64,000 nucleotides of DNA. Source: Actinomyces sp. oral taxon 170 str. F0386. GTDB lineage: Bacteria; Actinomycetota; Actinomycetes; Actinomycetales; Actinomycetaceae. The notes beneath the pieces were generated by a model. It was not told the DNA's origin. It searched no databases and saw only the letters and a program-made list of their open reading frames with translations. This document shows positions 33,187 to 41,712 of the stretch, one piece after another (position 1 is the first letter of the stretch; every line of letters begins with the position of its first letter). A program made the position numbers and the translations under genes. The stretch covers positions 1-64,000 of the forward strand of contig NZ_GL882544.1 in NCBI RefSeq assembly GCF_000195595.1. Direction: 5' to 3'.

Positions 33187-33915
33187 TCAGTGGGTAGCAC
33201 TGCCTGACTCTGCTGCTGCAGACGGATTCGCTTTCGCCGTGGGGGACGGAGCCGGAGGAGCGGGCACCTGGAAGGCCGGCATACCGTGCGCCAGGGTGAT
33301 GAGATCGGTGAGAAGACCTGCTGCGGTGGACTTGACGTTCCATCCTTCACTGAGCGCCGTAACGGCTGCGCCGTCGACGATGGCGATGACCATCTCCGGC
33401 TCAAGCGGGCTGTCGAGCTGACGCAGTACCCGACGCAAGGCGACGTTGAGGCGTTGACGTCCCTGGCGGTAGGCCTGCTTGACCGGGGCCGCCTGGCTGG
33501 CTGAGATGAGCTGAAGGTAGTGCCCGAAGTAGCCGCTGTGGGCCGGCAGAGTTGCCTGAAGGATGAACCGAACCCGCTGGGACAGATCTGGAACTCCTTT
33601 GAAGGCCTCCACCCGGTCCGCGACCCGCTCGGCACGAGAGGCCCACAACCCGATGTTGACCAGTCCTGCTTGATGGAGGAGATCCTCCAACCCGTCGAAG
33701 TAGTAGGTCGTTGCGGACAGTGAGCATCCGGCGCGCTTGGCGACGCTGCGGTGGCTGACCCCTGAGGGGCCGGACTCACGGATGATGGCTGCAGCAGCAT
33801 CGATGATGGCTTGACGACGGTCCTCACCCCGTGGCGTGACCCGAGAGTCTGATCGATTCCTTGATCGAGCCGCAAGGCCCTTGGATGCACTGTCTTCAGA
33901 ACCGGCCATGATCAT
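33187..33915 (-). CDS. TetR-family transcriptional regulator
   Basis: 242 aa. The N-terminal helix-turn-helix is clear: RRQAIIDAAAAIIRESGPSG then VSHRSVAKRAGCSLSATTYYFDGLEDLL (about residues 33-80). The C-terminal ligand domain is typical of the family in length but not assignable; the tail is rich in Pro, Ala and Ser. It lies 32 bp from the end of priA, convergent with it, and 125 bp downstream of the MHS symporter on the same strand. Control of the symporter, the arc cluster, or both is a reasonable guess. An inverted repeat just upstream may be its own operator. Confidence 0.85.
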   Translation of the reverse strand: MIMAGSEDSASKGLAARSRNRSDSRVTPRGEDRRQAIIDAAAAIIRESGPSGVSHRSVAKRAGCSLSATTYYFDGLEDLLHQAGLVNIGLWASRAERVADRVEAFKGVPDLSQRVRFILQATLPAHSGYFGHYLQLISASQAAPVKQAYRQGRQRLNVALRRVLRQLDSPLEPEMVIAIVDGAAVTALSEGWNVKSTAAGLLTDLITLAHGMPAFQVPAPPAPSPTAKANPSAAAESGSATH

Positions 33916-34040: not shown

Positions 34041-35384
34041 TCAGGTCTCAGTCAGCTCGGACCCGTGAATCGTGCGGGACCGGAAGATCGCCACCATGGC
34101 AATGAGTGCGATCACAGTGAGATAGACCGCTGGTGCGAGGGAGGAGCCGGACACTTTGATAAGCCAGGTGAGAACAAATGGTGTCGTGCCCCCAAGAAGC
34201 GCGTTGGCGCCATTGAATGACAGGGCAAATCCGGAGTAGCGCACGTTGGTCGGGAACGATTCGGCAAGAAATGTGGCCAGCGTGCCGTCATTGGCCGTCA
34301 AGACGATAGCGAAAACGATCTGGCACAGGATGACCACCATGAGCGTAGTAGCCTTGGTCATGACGACGAACAGTGGAATACTCACCACAATAAAGGCAAT
34401 GCAGGCGGAGATCAGCATACGGCGGCGCCCGAAGGAGTCGGACATGTGACCCATGAGGAAGATTGAGACGATGTAGCACACAAGTGTCACCGAGGTGGCG
34501 AAGTTCGCCGTGTCCTGGGAGAACCCAAGCTCTTGATGAGCATAGGTGGGCATGTAGGTCAGGAGCATGTAGAAGGCGACTGCGTTGAGGCAGGAGACTC
34601 CGAAGGTGATGAGAGTCTCATGCCTGTGATCTCGGAACAACAGTCGTAGAGGCTCGGACCAGCCGGCCGACTTCTGCTCCTGCGGCATTTCTGCACGCAT
34701 CTCCTGATAAGCAGGGGAGTCCTCCAGGTGCACCCGGATATAGCGACCAATAAGCCCTAGCGGACCGGACAGGAGGAAGGGGATGCGCCACCCCCAGGTA
34801 TTGACTGCGCTATCGCTCAGCATCGAGAACATCCCGGTTGCCGTGAGGGAACCGGCGAGCAGGCCGCATGCAGTGGAGGCGGGGACCAGGGAAGTGTAGA
34901 TACCTCGCTGGGAAGGGGGCGAATACTCAGCCAAGAATGTGCCGGCTCCAGCGTATTCACCTGAGGCGGAAAAACCCTGAATCATGCGAAGCAGAAGTAG
35001 ACCAATCGCTCCCAGAATACCAATCGCCGAATGTGGCGGAAGTAAACCGATCAAAAAAGTTGAACCCGACATAATAAGGATGGACCAGGACAGGGCCCAA
35101 CGACGGCCCCAGCGGTCGCCCCAAGCACCCCACACAATAGCGCCGATCGGTCGAAGAATGAACGACATAGCGAACACCGCATATGCCTCCAGAAGCCGGG
35201 CAGATTTGTCTCCCCCTGGGAAGAAGACGATTCCGATGACCGATGCCAGGTACGTGTATGAGGCGTAGTCAAACCACTCAATGAAGTTTCCGATGAAACT
35301 TGCTTTTGCCGCACGCCTCAATGCGAGACTTCGCTCGGGATCCAGGTGATGGTCGTTCGTGCTTCCTGGGTGGACGGTATTCAT
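34041..35384 (-). CDS. MHS-family MFS symporter (metabolite:H+ symporter)
   Basis: 447 aa with about twelve membrane helices. The N-terminal GNFIEWFDYASYTYL, DRWGRRWAL loop and RMIQGFSASGEYAGAG match the ProP/KgtP/ShiA branch of the major facilitator superfamily, which imports organic acids, betaines and related small solutes with protons. The substrate is not predictable. GC content is visibly low for this chromosome (27 of 60 bases in 35041-35100). Together with the EamA gene upstream it looks horizontally acquired. A role in arginine, ornithine or guanidino-compound uptake is only inferred from the neighbouring arc and amidinotransferase genes. Confidence 0.85.
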   Translation of the reverse strand: MNTVHPGSTNDHHLDPERSLALRRAAKASFIGNFIEWFDYASYTYLASVIGIVFFPGGDKSARLLEAYAVFAMSFILRPIGAIVWGAWGDRWGRRWALSWSILIMSGSTFLIGLLPPHSAIGILGAIGLLLLRMIQGFSASGEYAGAGTFLAEYSPPSQRGIYTSLVPASTACGLLAGSLTATGMFSMLSDSAVNTWGWRIPFLLSGPLGLIGRYIRVHLEDSPAYQEMRAEMPQEQKSAGWSEPLRLLFRDHRHETLITFGVSCLNAVAFYMLLTYMPTYAHQELGFSQDTANFATSVTLVCYIVSIFLMGHMSDSFGRRRMLISACIAFIVVSIPLFVVMTKATTLMVVILCQIVFAIVLTANDGTLATFLAESFPTNVRYSGFALSFNGANALLGGTTPFVLTWLIKVSGSSLAPAVYLTVIALIAMVAIFRSRTIHGSELTET

Positions 35385-35530: not shown

Positions 35531-36538
35531 CTAGGAAGCGCGAGATCTCCGGGAGACGGCATCCAGGACAATGGGTGCCAATCCCCCTCCGACGATGAGT
35601 ACTCCTCCAACCATTCCCACAGGAGTGAGTTGCTCCCCCCAGACGAGGAGACCGCACAGAATAGCAACTGGACATTCCCAGTAGGAGATCGTCGAGTACT
35701 CCACGGCGGGGAGGTTGCGTCCAGCAACGACCAGGAATCCTAGTGCGAAGAGGCCGCACACGAGGAACAGGGCTACTGCCCACATCCAGTTGGTGGCGGT
35801 GAAGGACGAAACGCCGTGCCATGGGCGCAAGAGGATTGACATCGCCAGCGTAGCAGAAGCAGCCCAGAGAAAGTTCCAAACGCCGCGGACAACTGAGTCA
35901 ACATCCTTGCGGTATCCATAGAAGAACATCGCCAGGCCGTAGAAGACTCCTGAGAGAAGACCAAGGAGGTCTCCCAGACTCTTGTTGGGGAACTCTGGAG
36001 ACGACGCCGACAGGTCCAGTCCGAATGTCAGACTCCCGTTCTTGAAGTCGATAATACCGATGGTCAGTAGCATTCCGATGAACACAAGAGTCAGGAAAAT
36101 ACCTGAAATCACGCTAATCTTTTCCTTGCGGAAGATGCGAGCGAGTAGCGCACAGAACAAGGGACCGGTGTAGATGAGGAAGACCGCGTTGGCGATCGAT
36201 GTCATCAGCGTTGAGGAGATGTAGCAGCCCAGGGAGAGGCCGATGCTCACCCCTCCCAGGATCACGGTGGCGCTCAAGCGGGTCCGCCGGAACAAGCCGG
36301 CCTTCCCGGTGAGGACAAGGATGAGGATGAAGCCGAGTAGGCCAACGGTCATGCGACCAAAGGCCAGGAATGATCCGATGACGGATTTATCGGCTTCAGC
36401 GAGACCCGCAGTCGTACCGCGGCTGATGGTGCCGACCAGGCCCATTCCGGTAGCAGAGAGAAGCATGGCAATCGCGCCGAGCTTCTTGTTCATCACGTAT
36501 TCTGTGACGGAGGAGTCGGTAGACGTTGTCTGTGACAT
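35531..36538 (-). CDS. EamA/DMT-family transporter
   Basis: 335 aa with about ten hydrophobic segments in two similar halves, the pattern of drug/metabolite transporters of the EamA type, which often export amino acids or metabolites. The first helix begins LGAIAMLLSATGMGLVG, and the second half has YWECPVAILCGLLVWGEQLTPVGMVGGVLIVGGG, a typical EamA end. AGGAG lies 11 bp before this ATG; a later in-frame ATG (36493) is possible. GC is conspicuously low (25 of 60 bases in 36061-36120). Its place between the amidinotransferase and the MHS gene suggests a role in moving a product of arginine metabolism (inference). Confidence 0.8.
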   Translation of the reverse strand: MSQTTSTDSSVTEYVMNKKLGAIAMLLSATGMGLVGTISRGTTAGLAEADKSVIGSFLAFGRMTVGLLGFILILVLTGKAGLFRRTRLSATVILGGVSIGLSLGCYISSTLMTSIANAVFLIYTGPLFCALLARIFRKEKISVISGIFLTLVFIGMLLTIGIIDFKNGSLTFGLDLSASSPEFPNKSLGDLLGLLSGVFYGLAMFFYGYRKDVDSVVRGVWNFLWAASATLAMSILLRPWHGVSSFTATNWMWAVALFLVCGLFALGFLVVAGRNLPAVEYSTISYWECPVAILCGLLVWGEQLTPVGMVGGVLIVGGGLAPIVLDAVSRRSRAS

Positions 36539-36678
36539 GGCAGTTGTGTCTCCTGAGTTCTCTCCCGGCGTACGTGGTAGGGCACAGCTTCATTGCTGAG
36601 CATCGTACGGCTGCACCAGTTCTCGTCCGTTTCCACGGGGAGTCCGATCACCGCGCTGCGATTACCCGAGCCGGGAAC

Positions 36679-36730: not shown

Positions 36731-37858
36731 TCAGACCAGAGTCGGGTCAGCGACCTGGTTGGGGAAGTAGTCCTCGCAGCCGCCCTCGCGGTACACGTCC
36801 GCCGTCGCGCAGTGGAGACCACCGCCGAAGGCGTATGCGTCACGGAAGGGAACCGGGATGACGTTCATGCCCAGCTTGTCCATCTGCTCCATCTGGTGGA
36901 CCTCACTGGCCTCGACACACACGGTCTTGTGGTCGATGACGAGGCAGTTCATGGACAGCCAGACGGAGGAGTAGCACAGCGGCGGCGGCACCTCGTGGGC
37001 CGGGGGAGCAGCGTCGACGATCTGCCAGTCGTTGGCCTCGAAGATCTTGCGCTGCTCCTCGGGCAGCCGGCGGTGCGGGTTGTTGATGATGAGCCCGGGC
37101 CGCAGCGGCACGAAGGTGGCGTCGATGTGGATCGGGTACGGGTCGCCGGGGAAGTTCACCGCGTGCACCCGGAAGTCGGGGTAGTAGCGCTTGAACCACT
37201 CCATCGCCTTGCGGTTGGTGGTGAGGCCGTGCTGGATGAACAGGTCCTTGCCCACGCGCATGACGTCGGCGGCGTCCCACATCGGCTCAACCTCAGTGGT
37301 CACGAAGTCCTTGGCTGCGGTGCGCTCGAGGCGCTCCTCCAGGGAGATCCGCTCGTCGTAGTAGTTGTGCTTGTAGGACTTGTCCGTCAGCCGGGGACGA
37401 GGCGCCTGAGTCCACTTGAACTCCGGGTCCTCCTCGAAGTACTGGTTCATGAGGGGCCAGTAGGCGAGGTACTCGAAGTACCGGCACCGGAACGAGTTGG
37501 CCGACGACATGATCTCGTCACCGATGGTCAGCAGGATGTCGCGCGGGGGCATCTGGGTGAAGCCCGACTCCGTGCGGAAGTCAGGCGTCTGGATGGCCTG
37601 GTTCCACTGCAGCGGTGTGGGCCGGTCCACCTTGACGCCCAGCCCCTCGAGGATCTTGACGTAGTTGTCGAGCTGCTCGTTGGCGGCCTCGACGGTGGCG
37701 GTGGGGCGAGGACCCCACATACCGCGCATCTCGGAGTCGATCGGCACCTTCTCGGAGGTGGCCGGCTCCTCGGGAGGAATAACCGAGAAGTCCGCGCGCC
37801 CGACGATGACGTGCTTGAGCGGGTCGAAGTCGTTCCAAGAGTTGACAATCTTCGTCAT
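36731..37858 (-). CDS. Amidinotransferase, arginine:glycine-amidinotransferase-like
   Basis: 375 aa, the normal length for a bacterial member of the AGAT family, which moves the amidino group of arginine to an acceptor amine, leaving ornithine. The catalytic set is visible: WDAADVMRVGKDLF (Asp195/Asp198), PIHIDATF (His244) and GGGLHCATADV (nucleophile Cys350). These match the FDAADF, HIDATF and GGGFHC blocks of vertebrate AGAT. The natural acceptor cannot be read off. It lies in the same direction as arcA, arcB and arcC, 211 bp downstream of arcC, and is followed by a terminator hairpin, so it may have its own promoter. It shares substrate (arginine) and product (ornithine) with the arc enzymes. 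Confidence 0.88.
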   Translation of the reverse strand: MTKIVNSWNDFDPLKHVIVGRADFSVIPPEEPATSEKVPIDSEMRGMWGPRPTATVEAANEQLDNYVKILEGLGVKVDRPTPLQWNQAIQTPDFRTESGFTQMPPRDILLTIGDEIMSSANSFRCRYFEYLAYWPLMNQYFEEDPEFKWTQAPRPRLTDKSYKHNYYDERISLEERLERTAAKDFVTTEVEPMWDAADVMRVGKDLFIQHGLTTNRKAMEWFKRYYPDFRVHAVNFPGDPYPIHIDATFVPLRPGLIINNPHRRLPEEQRKIFEANDWQIVDAAPPAHEVPPPLCYSSVWLSMNCLVIDHKTVCVEASEVHQMEQMDKLGMNVIPVPFRDAYAFGGGLHCATADVYREGGCEDYFPNQVADPTLV

Positions 37859-37966
37859 GAGTGAGTCACTCCCTTGTGCTCGTTGAGTGGTGTGTGAATT
37901 GAGACGGATGGATTTGTCTGTGGGTTCAACACTCTCATTCTATCCTGGAGAAATCTCGAAAGTTGC

Positions 37967-37982
37967 CACAGGAATATCTGTG
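37967..37982. promoter_or_regulatory. Inverted repeat upstream of the amidinotransferase
   Basis: CACAG and CTGTG arms with a 6-bp AT-rich centre, about 110 bp upstream of the amidinotransferase start. It lies in the 211-bp gap after arcC. The size and symmetry fit a dimeric regulator site, but no family is identifiable. A TAGAAT-like -10 occurs nearby on the minus strand without a good -35. Confidence 0.3.
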
Positions 37983-38069
37983 TCAAAGAATGACGGCTGA
38001 ACCATGGCATGGTCATATGTGGTTGACGGTTCCCACCACCTCCTTGAAGGACCGATGCCGTCGTTCCGG

Positions 38070-39050
38070 TCAGGCCCTGCGAATGCGGGTATCGAGCTGC
38101 TCGGGAATCGGGGGATGGATATCGTCGGGACCTCCGTAGTTACCCCCAGGGGTCACAATAGTCCCTGCGTGGCCGTCAATGATGGAAACGGCATCCTCAA
38201 GACGGCCGATCGCCGCCATGTCTCCGGTCAGCTCAACAAATCGACATACCGCCTCGACCTTCGGTCCCATGGATCCACTGGGAAGCCCCATAGCGCGCAG
38301 CTCTGCCGGCGTGGCCCGTGGAACCTGCTTCTGGTTCTCGGTTCCGAAGTCCTCAAAGACGCCGTCGACGTCGGTCAGGATGAGGAGCGCATCAGCCTCA
38401 AGCGCCTCGGCCATGACCGATGCGGTGAGGTCCTTGTCGATGACGGCCTCAATGCCCTTGAGCTTGCCTTCTTCGCTGCGGACGACGGGAACTCCGCCTC
38501 CACCGGAGCAGACGACGATGGCTCCGGCCTCCAGGAGCGTGCGCACTAGTCGGGTCTCGATGACCCGCTGCGGCTTGGGCGAGCCGACGACGCGACGGTA
38601 GTGCTCGCCGTCGGGCTTGACTACCCAACCTCGTTCCTCGGCCAGCTTCTCGGCCTCCTCCTTGGTGTAGACCTCACCGACGAACTTGGTGGGGTTGGAG
38701 AAGGCCGGGTCCCCGGCCATGACCAGGGTCTGGTTGACCATCGCGGCCACGTGGCGCCCCGGCAGGGCGTTCTGCATGGCCTGGAGCAGCCAGTAGCCGA
38801 TCATGCCCTGGGTCTGAGCGCCGAGGGTGTCGAAGGGGTAGGGCTCCGAGAGGCGCTCATCATTGGCGGACTCCAGAGCCAGGACCCCCACCTGAGGGCC
38901 GTTGCCGTGGGTGAGGACCAGCTCGTGCTTCTCCGCCAGCTTGGCGAGCTCACGCGCCGCCACCTCGACGTTGTGGATCTGAGTGCGGGCGTCGGGCTTC
39001 TCGCCCCGACGCAGGAGGGCGTTTCCGCCGAGGGCAACAACAATTCTCAC
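38070..39050 (-). CDS. arcC: Carbamate kinase
   Basis: 326 aa. Last step of the arginine deiminase pathway: carbamoyl phosphate plus ADP gives ATP, ammonia and CO2. The N terminus RIVVALGGNALLRRGEKP, the LTHGNGPQVGVLALE loop, ICSGGGGVPVV-like IVVCSGGGGVPVV, DKDLTASVMAEALEADALLILTDVDGV, and the final GSMGPKVEAVCRFVE with DGHAGTIV are all family motifs. GTG start; only 3 bp separate it from the arcB stop, so the two are coupled. Confidence 0.97.
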   Translation of the reverse strand: MRIVVALGGNALLRRGEKPDARTQIHNVEVAARELAKLAEKHELVLTHGNGPQVGVLALESANDERLSEPYPFDTLGAQTQGMIGYWLLQAMQNALPGRHVAAMVNQTLVMAGDPAFSNPTKFVGEVYTKEEAEKLAEERGWVVKPDGEHYRRVVGSPKPQRVIETRLVRTLLEAGAIVVCSGGGGVPVVRSEEGKLKGIEAVIDKDLTASVMAEALEADALLILTDVDGVFEDFGTENQKQVPRATPAELRAMGLPSGSMGPKVEAVCRFVELTGDMAAIGRLEDAVSIIDGHAGTIVTPGGNYGGPDDIHPPIPEQLDTRIRRA

Positions 39051-39053
39051 GAC

Positions 39054-40061
39054 TCAGTCCCACTCTCCGAGGGTTGCGACCATGACGGCCTTGATGGTGT
39101 GCATACGGTTCTCGGCCTGGTCGAAGGCGACGTTGCGCTCGGTCTCGAAGACGTCATCGGTCACCTCCAGGCCTTCCATGCCTGTCTTGGCGAAGATATC
39201 TTCACCCACCGTGGTGTTGCGATCGTGGAAGGCCGGCAGACAGTGGAGGAACTTCACGTCGGGATTGCCGGTGGCCTCGACCAGCTCGGCGTTGACCTGG
39301 TAAGGGCGCAGCAGGGCGATGCGCTGGTCCCAGACCTCCTTGGGCTCGCCCATCGAGACCCACACGTCGGTGTAGAGGAAGTCGACTCCCTTGACGCCTT
39401 CTGCAGCGTTGTCGGTGACGAGAATATGAGCTCCACTCTTCTCCGCCAGCTTCTGGGCCTGGGCCACCACCTCGGGAGGCGTCTGCAGTTCCTTGGGAGC
39501 CACCATCCGCACATCCATTCCCATGAGCGCGGCTGAGATGAGCAGCGAGTTGGCCACGTTGTTGCGGGCGTCCCCGAGGTATGCGAAGGAGATCTCCTCA
39601 ATCGGCTTGCCCGCGTGCTCCAGCATGGTCATCTGGTCTGCGAGCATCTGCGTGGGGTGCCACTCGTCGGTCAGCCCGTTCCACACCGGCACGCCCGAGA
39701 GCTCGGCCAGAGCCTCGACGTGCTCCTGCTTCTTGCCGCGGAACTCGATGCCGTCGTAGAAGCGGCCCAGGACCCGGGCGGTGTCCGCCACCGACTCTTT
39801 GTGCCCCATCTGCGAGCCCGAGGGGTCCAGGTAGGTCACCTGGGCTCCCTGGTCGTAGGCGGCCACCTCGAAGGAGCAGCGGGTGCGAGTCGAGGTCTTC
39901 TCGAAGATGAGTGCGATGTTCTTGCCGGTCAGCCGCTTCACCTCGCGGCCGGCCTTCTTGTCCTCCTTGAGCTGAGCCGCCAGCTGGAGCAGGGTGCCCC
40001 ACTCATTTGCGGTGAAGTCGAGCTCTTTGAGGAAGCTGCGGTTGTGCAGGGGGTGGGTCAT
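39054..40061 (-). CDS. arcB: Ornithine carbamoyltransferase (catabolic context)
   Basis: About 335 aa. It converts citrulline and phosphate to ornithine and carbamoyl phosphate in this pathway. The carbamoyl-phosphate site reads [20 protein letters not shown], followed by [11 protein letters not shown] and the ornithine-side HCLPAFHD. The ATG at 40061 has AAGGAG 5 bp upstream; the frame's upstream ATG at 40109 lacks this. The position between arcA and arcC indicates a catabolic role, although a dual role with arginine synthesis cannot be excluded from this window. Confidence 0.96.
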
Positions 40062-40139
40062 GAGGACTCCTTCGTCTAAGGGGGTGAGCGGGTGATGGGG
40101 TTTCTTCATTGACGCCGAAGGCGCAGATGGGGGATCGGC

Positions 40140-41363
40140 TCAGACAACCGGGTCCCGCAGAATTGGGCAACTCATGCAGTGCGGGCCGCCACGCCCGCGC
40201 CCGACCTCCGAGCCCGGGATCGTCAGGACCTCGATACCGCGGGAGGTGAGGTACTCATTGGTGTTGACATTGCGTTCGTAGGCGACGATGACGCCCGGGG
40301 CGATGGCCAGCGAGTTGGAACCGTCATCCCACTGCTCACGGGCTGCCGCCATCGAGTCCTGAGGCGTGATGAGCACGGTGAGGTCGTCGATGCCCAGTGC
40401 CTGGGCGATGACGCGATACATGTCCTCAGGGTCGTTACGGGTGACGTTGATCTGCCCGCCGTCGCCCGGCCGAAGGGTGAGCGTTGGCAGCATCCCCAGA
40501 CCTCCATAGATGGTGAAGGTGCCGACATCGACCATGGTCATGACCGTGTCCAGGTGCATCTGCGCGCGCGTCCGGCTCATCTCGACGGCGACGACCCGGT
40601 TGACCTTCCCTCCGGCGAAGAGTCTACTGGCGAGTCTTTCGATGCCCTGGGCGGTGGTGCGTTCCGAGACGCCGACCAGTACGGCGCCGTTGCCGATGAT
40701 CTGGACGTCGCCTCCCTCGACGGTGGCGGGGCCGGCCTGGGTACCCTCGGACCACACGGGGAAGCTCGCGTTCGCGAACCTGGGATGCCAGCGATAGATC
40801 GCCTCGTAGTTGATGGTCTCGCGCTGCCTGGCCGGCATCATCATTGAGTTAATGGACACACCGTTATAGATCCAGCAGGACGTGTCACGGGTGAAGAGGT
40901 GGTTGGGCAACGGAGCCAGGAGAAGGTCATCGTCGTCCATGGAGGCTAGTACGAGCGAGTCCGGACAGGAGACGCGCTCGAGCAACTCAGCCTTGGTGAT
41001 GCCAGCGATGAGCACCTCAGCTAGGTCCGCCCCGGACAACCCTTGAGCCAGAGCGCGCAGCGGCTCGGCGGCACTGGGGCCATTGGTGTTCTCATTGACG
41101 ACTCGGTCCAGGACGTAGTCCCGAGCCTCGGGTACCTCCAGGGTCTCGGCCAGAAGGTTACTGAGGTAAAGCACCTCGATGTCGCGGTCGGTCAGTACGC
41201 GTGCAAACTGGTCGTGCTCCTCCTGGGCCCGCTCCAGCCACAGGACATCGTCGAACAGGAGGTGCTCCTTGTTCTGTGGGGTGAGTCGAAGCATCTCACT
41301 GCCGGGCCTGTGCAGAATGACCTGCTGAAGCCTCCCGATTTCGGAATCTACGGAAAGATCCAT
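40140..41363 (-). CDS. arcA: Arginine deiminase
   Basis: 407 aa. Hydrolyses arginine to citrulline and ammonia. The catalytic cysteine is Cys396 in [14 protein letters not shown]. Other pathway motifs are the [13 protein letters not shown] segment, [23 protein letters not shown] and [10 protein letters not shown] with the catalytic His. First gene of the arcA-arcB-arcC run; GGGAG precedes its start closely. Arginine catabolism yields ATP and ammonia and protects oral bacteria against acid (established for the pathway). No arcD-type antiporter is encoded in the window. Confidence 0.97.
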
Positions 41364-41437: not shown

Positions 41438-41469
41438 GGTACGCCCGTACCGGATTAGTACGAGCGTAC
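41438..41469. promoter_or_regulatory. Tandem GTACG-NN-CGTAC palindromes upstream of arcA
   Basis: Two perfect palindromes, GGTACG-CC-CGTACC at 41438-41451 and GTACG-AG-CGTAC at 41458-41469, centred 19 bp apart and about 75-105 bp upstream of the arcA start. Two similar sites on nearly the same DNA face suggest a pair of operators. They do not resemble the AT-rich ArgR box. The same region is upstream of the divergent HAD gene. Confidence 0.5.
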
Positions 41470-41712
41470 CAGACTCACAGAGGGTTGGAAACCTCTTGGC
41501 GGAACTGAGTTCGAGGCAAGTTGCGTGAACAACCGTCGTCAAGGCGTGACATTCATCCCATGAGGTGTGTGCTCTTTCGATGGGATTGCTAGGTGTGTCC
41601 TGCCTTACAGTCGACATGCCCCCGCGTTGGTAGAAGCCGTACAAAAACGAGGATCCCATCCAGGGCCACCATGAGCGGGACTCTTGCGGGGAACCGTGGA
41701 AGGATGCCGAGC

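Follow-up and report, generated by a model that had tools for sequence, protein, structure and literature searches.

In a 64,000-nucleotide stretch of the genome of Actinomyces sp. oral taxon 170 str. F0386 (the whole of which is hereafter termed the window), an arginine deiminase (ADI) cluster, arcABC, lies next to a gene for an AGAT-like amidinotransferase (AT), and we consider it likely that these genes belong to a cassette for the fermentation of creatine, in which the amidino group would enter the arginine deiminase pathway with ornithine as its carrier. Judged by its gene neighbors in relatives, AT probably passes the amidino group of host creatine to ornithine. The host contains abundant creatine and creatinine, the latter being the standard marker for the kidney. 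The enzyme families concerned are known; their combination and the activity predicted here did not turn up in our literature search, which covered titles and abstract openings (with preprints and most subscription papers outside it) and which contained, among the matches listed, no creatine:ornithine amidino transfer coupled to arginine deiminase.

In the proposed pathway, the MFS permease would take up creatine, and AT would convert creatine and ornithine to sarcosine and arginine. ArcA would then hydrolyze arginine to citrulline and ammonia, ArcB would convert citrulline and phosphate to ornithine and carbamoyl phosphate, and ArcC would use carbamoyl phosphate to form ATP, CO2, and ammonia. 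The ornithine regenerated by ArcABC would serve as a catalytic carrier, and one ATP would be yielded, for a net reaction of creatine + ADP + Pi + 2 H2O -> sarcosine + 2 NH3 + CO2 + ATP. The EamA protein would probably export sarcosine. ArcA is irreversible in practice, and its irreversibility would therefore pull AT toward arginine. Creatininase-bearing relatives could start from creatinine, and the window's genome, which has no creatininase, would start from creatine.

Gene content of the cassette

All genes of the cassette lie on the reverse strand, in the order arcABC-AT-EamA-MFS-TetR. The products of arcA (arginine deiminase; 40140..41363), arcB (ornithine carbamoyltransferase; 39054..40109), and arcC (carbamate kinase; 38070..39050) all exceed NCBIfam equivalog cut-offs, with (i) 492.2 bits against 489.1 for TIGR01078, (ii) 523 against 515 for NF003286 and 424.2 against 280.85 for TIGR00658, and (iii) 373.4 bits against 358.25 for TIGR00746, respectively. 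AT (36731..37858; 375 aa), the proposed creatine:ornithine amidinotransferase, gave no Pfam or NCBIfam match at E ≤ 0.001 and is recognized by its homology to human AGAT. As the initial annotation had stated, these four genes run in one direction (41363-36731), and the unit reaches beyond them through EamA, MFS, and TetR genes (36538-33187). The latter encode an EamA/DMT transporter (35531..36538; PF00892), proposed to export the by-product sarcosine; an MFS transporter (34041..35384), the proposed creatine permease, whose nearest model, a metabolite:H+ symporter, scored 361 bits, under the cut-off of 443; and a TetR-type regulator (33187..33915; PF00440, 27.3 against 24 bits), the proposed regulator of the cassette. 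The arcABC-AT-EamA-MFS-TetR unit is recurrent in Actinomycetaceae. From the gene neighborhoods described below, we infer the reaction and direction of AT, the substrates of the transporters, and the regulation of the cassette.

Linkage of AT with arginine deiminase genes

AT is present in 37 of the 49 genomes of the genus, and in 28 of these 37 an ADI gene lies on the contig and strand of AT, at a distance of 2.2-2.3 kb. The co-occurrence survey that the initial annotation had called for thus found the linkage with arc genes to be kept in relatives. This linkage is not due to chance, and it supports the earlier suggestion that AT is tied to arginine catabolism and supplies the deiminase pathway from a guanidino compound. 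In the family of genome G412, which we took to be Eggerthellaceae because the Eggerthella lenta genome belongs to it, AT is present in 67 of 138 genomes; ADI was matched in 62 of the 67 genomes with AT versus 20 of the 71 genomes without it (p = 1.3e-15; matches at E ≤ 0.001, a few of them weak or fragmentary). We further took a census of neighbors on the same strand within 6 kb (7 kb for TetR and BCCT) of 86 AT copies in fetched loci, many of which are cut by contig ends, with two copies in one locus able to share a counted neighbor. EamA was found at 72 copies, MFS at 71, TetR at 56, any arc gene at 49, creatininase at 18, and a BCCT transporter at 10. The Eggerthellaceae loci carry AT proteins 81-86% identical to that of the window and EamA, MFS, and TetR proteins about 34-55% identical to their counterparts, and a delta-proteobacterial bin has arcB-arcC-arcA-AT together. 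A Desulfosarcina locus (L074, 3950-12873) holds arcB-arcC-AT beside an ABC transporter nearest to polyamine types; it gave no match for arcA, and its opposite strand encodes a second member of the carbamoyltransferase family.

The arginine/ornithine antiporter gene arcD was over its cut-off in 18 of the 49 genus genomes, and in 15 of these 18 it lies within 0.4 kb of an ADI gene. Among the 55 ADI places entered for the genus, arcD was found within 10 kb of none of the 28 linked to AT versus 15 of the 27 others. An AT-linked ADI would need no such antiporter because arginine would be made inside the cell and ornithine recycled. In the window's genome, an arcD gene lies 124 kb from the cassette (G000 contig C41, 165303-166700), with no ADI match next to it. 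The same genome encodes, on contig C8 (L202, 6285-7754), a second protein resembling arginine deiminase (489 aa), which is diverged and scored under the NCBIfam cut-offs (370.7 against 414 and 354.2 against 489.1); many ADI matches across the genus, at about 277-305 bits, are in the same score range as this protein.

AT as a homolog of human AGAT

Human AGAT is the best solved relative of AT, with 269 bits to 1jdx (residues 5-365) and 41.6% identity in an alignment of 351 columns, and AT also matches the inosamine-phosphate amidinotransferase 1bwd, at 163 bits. Cys350, His244, and Asp195 of AT, which had been noted as intact catalytic residues, indeed align with Cys407, His303, and Asp254 of AGAT, and Asp107 aligns with Asp170. 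The AGAT positions Cys407, His303, Asp254, Asp170, Asp305, Arg322, and Ser355, which we take to be the catalytic and arginine/ornithine-side residues, are invariant in all 87 family members compared. Asn300 and Met302 of AGAT, which presumably set substrate specificity in the glycine-using enzyme, correspond to Tyr241 and Ile243 in AT and to Tyr and Ile in 87 of the 87 members; because of these replacements, we did not file AT as a glycine amidinotransferase.

AT is 99-100% identical to the proteins of Actinomyces naeslundii, Actinomyces johnsonii, and Actinomyces oris. A named collection gave 144 AT relatives, from which 79 loci were kept (81-100% identity), including those of Cutibacterium, Georgenia, Austwickia, and two delta-proteobacteria. 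In a phylum sample of 396 genomes, 18 had an AT match at E ≤ 1e-10; 11 of these belong to the AT family (≥79% identity, three as fragments only) and 7 stand at ≤44%, and the family is therefore sharply bounded. Its nearest outside relative is a Photobacterium plasmid protein of about 60% identity. In quick trees, which have long branches and modest branch support, AT did not group with unrelated amidinotransferases; its family forms a clade of its own, with a long stem, apart from the distant amidinotransferases of the phylum. A vertebrate-like origin, to which the motifs noted in the initial annotation might have pointed, is not supported, as the human enzyme is less similar to AT than are the Photobacterium protein and the full-length family matches (80-100%), and Asn300 and Met302 are changed in all family members compared. 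We rejected gene transfer from a vertebrate, the family being a bacterial clade with a long stem. On the Photobacterium plasmid (L238, 3211-10143), the AT relative is accompanied by an EamA gene, and genes for a sodium:solute symporter and for regulators of the LacI and AraC types lie close to it. AT was found as fragments only, many at contig ends, in the Eggerthellaceae assemblies G308, G319, G102, G444, G567, and G569; this is expected because near-identical copies break assembly, and counts of AT presence there may be too low.

Pairing of creatininase with AT or creatinase

Creatininase (TIGR04448, over cut-off) occurs in 14 of the 49 genus genomes, and all 14 have AT, on the same strand and 1.1-2.5 kb from creatininase; the co-presence alone gives a Fisher p value of 0.011. 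This recurrent neighbor is a true creatininase, with 329.6 bits against a cut-off of 235, 295 bits to the solved creatininase 1j2t, and aligned EQHG and NGHYEN motifs, which we take to be the creatininase metal sites. In Eggerthellaceae, creatininase occurs in 28 of 138 genomes, 24 of which also have AT (p = 1.1e-5), and 16 of the 28 creatininases lie within 2.5 kb of AT on the same strand. On the quick AT tree, the creatininase neighbor requires at least 10 changes. The window's genome has no creatininase (TIGR04448).

The creatinase domain Creatinase_N (PF01321) was found in none of the 14 creatininase-bearing genus genomes and had no match in the window's genome. Outside Eggerthellaceae, four of six creatininase genomes without AT have Creatinase_N on the same strand, 2.2-2.5 kb from creatininase; one such protein scored 612 bits to the creatine amidinohydrolase 1chm, its best match other than a creatine amidinohydrolase being at 90 bits. 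We also searched the 213 genomes of the window's family for creatininase and, outside the genus, found 15 loci with a score over the cut-off, distributed over 13 genomes. Ten of the 15 contain AT, three contain creatinase, and none contains both; of the remaining two, one has neither gene, and the contig of the other stops short of the place where AT would lie. One genome (G629) carries a creatininase-AT locus as well as a creatininase-creatinase locus. At least 5 of the 10 AT-paired loci were already in the AT-derived set, which makes this test only partly new data, although the search was not AT-based. Together, these loci suggest that AT stands in for creatinase in creatininase loci.

Duplicate AT copies and published observations

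Two AT copies, compared in each of nine genomes, are 98-100% identical in protein. In the E. lenta genome (G394, taken as the type strain), the copies are identical in both protein and DNA; one lies beside EamA, creatininase, BCCT, and MFS genes and the other beside EamA, MFS, and TetR genes. The identical AT in both E. lenta modules suggests that one enzyme, with one substrate, may serve the creatininase and the EamA-MFS-TetR modules. Open frames between or near these cassette genes (L194, 9815-10375 and 13147-14115; L195, 9334-9894) have no Pfam match. E. lenta reduced the level of creatine in the colon of gnotobiotic mice, and the authors, in the part of the report available to us, described a creatininase and no gene for the next steps (PMC11149096).

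In Actinobaculum massiliense on urinary catheters, AT made up 0.0196 of spectra and fell in the class >8-fold above culture (PMC6314084, Table 1, the report being available in part); ArcA, ArcB, and ArcC, at 0.0021, 0.0042, and 0.0034, respectively, are in the same >8-fold class and have consecutive locus numbers. In the available part, the authors tentatively assigned these proteins to a polyketide pathway and noted that the effects of urine and biofilm were not separated (PMC6314084). The whole cassette is present in another A. massiliense strain (L033).

Relatives of the MFS transporter

The window's MFS protein was compared with 72,556 plasmid records, 1485 of which had a match. The best 40 of these 1485 show 50-56% identity, and in an even spread of 60 records, 5 reached ≥50% and the remaining 55, which include ProP proteins, did not exceed about 38%. 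From the upper group we fetched 12 loci, selected for diversity of organism (four from Acinetobacter), and from the lower group 8 loci as controls. Creatinase was found within the 6-kb flanks of the MFS gene in 10 of the 12 upper-group loci, directly adjacent in 8, and in none of the 8 lower-group control loci. These plasmid creatinases are 61-69% identical to the 612-bit creatinase described above, and the other two upper-group loci carry annotated sarcosine oxidase genes (L246) and hydantoinase genes (L248). The window's MFS protein thus reaches the ≥50% identity of the creatinase-linked group, whereas about 38% is the upper limit among the other symporters listed; its identity to the MFS proteins that accompany creatininase or creatinase in L220, L225, and L234-L236 (48-53%) was trusted only once the plasmid survey had shown that limit. 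The MFS relatives beside creatinase therefore tie the window, itself without creatininase, to creatine, and we propose that the MFS protein is a predicted creatine permease.

A creatinase-MFS-DMT unit recurs on the Acinetobacter plasmids (L247, L249, L250, and L251), two of them near formaldehyde-handling genes, and in one Acinetobacter locus a urease gene is annotated close by, which fits urea from creatinase. By annotation (one checked), an EamA/DMT gene follows MFS in the Acinetobacter loci. The window's EamA protein has no match at 60 bits in these loci; EamA is therefore weak as a second creatine marker, and only MFS was counted.

Evaluation of alternative readings

The initial annotation had proposed a donor of the guanidinoacetate type and had held that the sequence does not choose between the feeding of guanidino compounds into the deiminase pathway and their synthesis. 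The latter statement is correct for the window alone, whereas the relatives point to creatine; from the former, the feeding of a guanidino compound stands, whereas the compound is more likely creatine, in view of the creatininase linkage, the creatinase-linked permease, and the published proteomic and mouse data. The main rival, the same cycle with guanidinoacetate as the main donor, glycine as the product, and creatine at most a side substrate, appears unlikely to us. AGAT, the closest solved homolog of AT, handles guanidinoacetate, and glyA-folD adjoins the cassette in some relatives, but creatininase, beside AT in all 14 genus cases, yields creatine instead, the MFS relatives adjoin creatinase, and the Asn300 and Met302 positions of AGAT are Tyr and Ile in every family member compared. 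The substrate of AT is assigned by context, and amidinotransferases vary in substrate, which would allow another guanidino donor (homoarginine, canavanine, guanidinobutyrate, or taurocyamine) with a secondary creatininase linkage; we regard this as extremely unlikely, since the neighbors annotated include no gene for such compounds, whereas creatine genes are present. Amidino transfer can proceed in either direction and exporters are common among EamA proteins, so AT might run forward, from arginine and an amine (sarcosine, glycine, or other) to a guanidino product, such as creatine, that is exported or kept as an osmolyte. We judge this to be very unlikely, as the arginine would also be drawn on by ArcABC, transporters of the MFS and BCCT types usually serve for uptake, no arcD lies within 10 kb of the AT-linked ADI genes, and E. 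lenta lowers creatine in mice (PMC11149096, available in part). A role in a polyketide or other secondary-metabolite pathway was raised for A. massiliense, with reference to a cyanobacterial relative acting in such a pathway (PMC6314084, in the part available); its probability seems negligible, with no polyketide or peptide synthase among the neighbors annotated (a subset of all neighbors) and with arc, creatininase, and transporter genes as the frequent partners of AT.

Several observations weigh against creatine as the donor or against a strict association of AT with its partners. Twelve of the 28 Eggerthellaceae creatininases are not near AT, 4 of the 12 being in genomes without an AT match, and creatininase is near only 18 of the 86 AT copies, the window's copy not among them (many loci being cut short). 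Creatinase_N was not beside creatininase in two of the six AT-less control genomes (G086 and G409) nor in the four AT-less Eggerthellaceae, and 9 of the 10 AT-bearing Eggerthellaceae tested, E. lenta included, carry Creatinase_N elsewhere, in proteins that could be creatinases or peptidases. In nine of the 37 AT-bearing genus genomes, AT is not accompanied by a nearby ADI gene, and 5 of the 67 AT-bearing Eggerthellaceae have no ADI, four of them being <90% complete and the fifth 99% complete. The Photobacterium relative has His rather than Tyr at the 300 position, with Ile at 302, and a different transporter, and the AT copies in G514 and G515, outside the nine pairs compared, differ in match score. 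Sarcosine also fell in the mice with E. lenta (PMC11149096, available in part), whereas the proposed pathway makes sarcosine; the drop might reflect consumption of sarcosine in a later step, or a smaller supply of creatine to the other members. Lastly, the glyA-folD genes that precede arcA in some relatives could be compatible with glycine as the product, and might indicate that glycine or a methyl group is used. They lie on the cassette strand in L013, L014, L018, and L034 (identified by family models in L013 and by sequence cluster elsewhere). Apart from them, no sarcosine- or glycine-degrading genes were regular AT neighbors among the neighbors annotated.

Upstream palindrome and proposed regulation

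A candidate operator, the palindrome GGTACGCCCGTACC, occurs upstream of arcA as an exact match (41438..41451; 75-88 bp upstream) and as a second copy with one mismatch (41457..41470). Across 694 kb of 37 loci, the palindrome GTACGNNCGTAC has 17 exact occurrences, in 16 of the 37 loci; 16 of the 17 are ≤450 bp upstream of the first gene of the cassette, and the 17th is 62 bp upstream of arcA in L034. With one mismatch allowed, 34 of 49 occurrences are upstream of the cassette. In loci that lack arcA or have no arc genes, the palindrome precedes arcB (L009 and L011) or AT (L035). Within the window alone, its frequency is not unusual (5 matches with ≤2 mismatches versus 3.0 expected), and it carries weight only through where it stands across loci; we chose the pattern with the window already in view, the sharing of the site among close relatives reflects common descent, and the scan extended to loci other than those of Eggerthellaceae. 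TetR and the palindrome probably control induction of the cassette. Two CGTACG palindromes upstream of the EamA gene (36569-36574 and 36604-36609) resemble part of the palindrome upstream of arcA.

Comparison with known systems and significance

AT shares with human AGAT (GATM) full-length homology and the key residues, but it is encoded in a bacterial arcABC cluster and is proposed to run toward arginine, with creatine as the donor. The cassette likewise has the three enzymes of arcABC fermentation and the same source of ATP, carbamoyl phosphate; it would differ in that arginine is made inside the cell from creatine and ornithine is recycled, and it differs in that none of the 28 AT-linked ADI genes has an over-cut-off arcD within 10 kb. 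The creatininase-creatinase route also leads from creatinine through creatine to sarcosine, with related MFS or BCCT genes in some loci, whereas in the proposed route AT and arcABC would replace creatinase, and ammonia, CO2, and ATP would be formed instead of urea. CreT of Corynebacterium glutamicum is a creatine transporter of the MFS type that is needed for creatine use, and in Pseudomonas putida a gene resembling it precedes creatinase (PMC8864220, available in part); the window's transporter is likewise an MFS protein. Part of the creatinine is lost to microbes by routes described as using creatininase, creatinase, and deaminases, and a review lists at least four microbial creatinine routes, none by amidino transfer in the portion of its text available (PMC11764249).

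If the proposed pathway is correct, it would be an energy-yielding route without creatinase or urea, and common commensals would have been selected to eat creatine. It would explain the loss of creatine to E. lenta without a recognized creatinase (PMC11149096, as far as available), and it would give a new reading of an abundant in vivo protein of Actinobaculum, a urinary bacterium, on catheters (PMC6314084, likewise). Further, it would bear on the use of creatinine as a marker and on the loss of creatine supplements in the mouth and gut.

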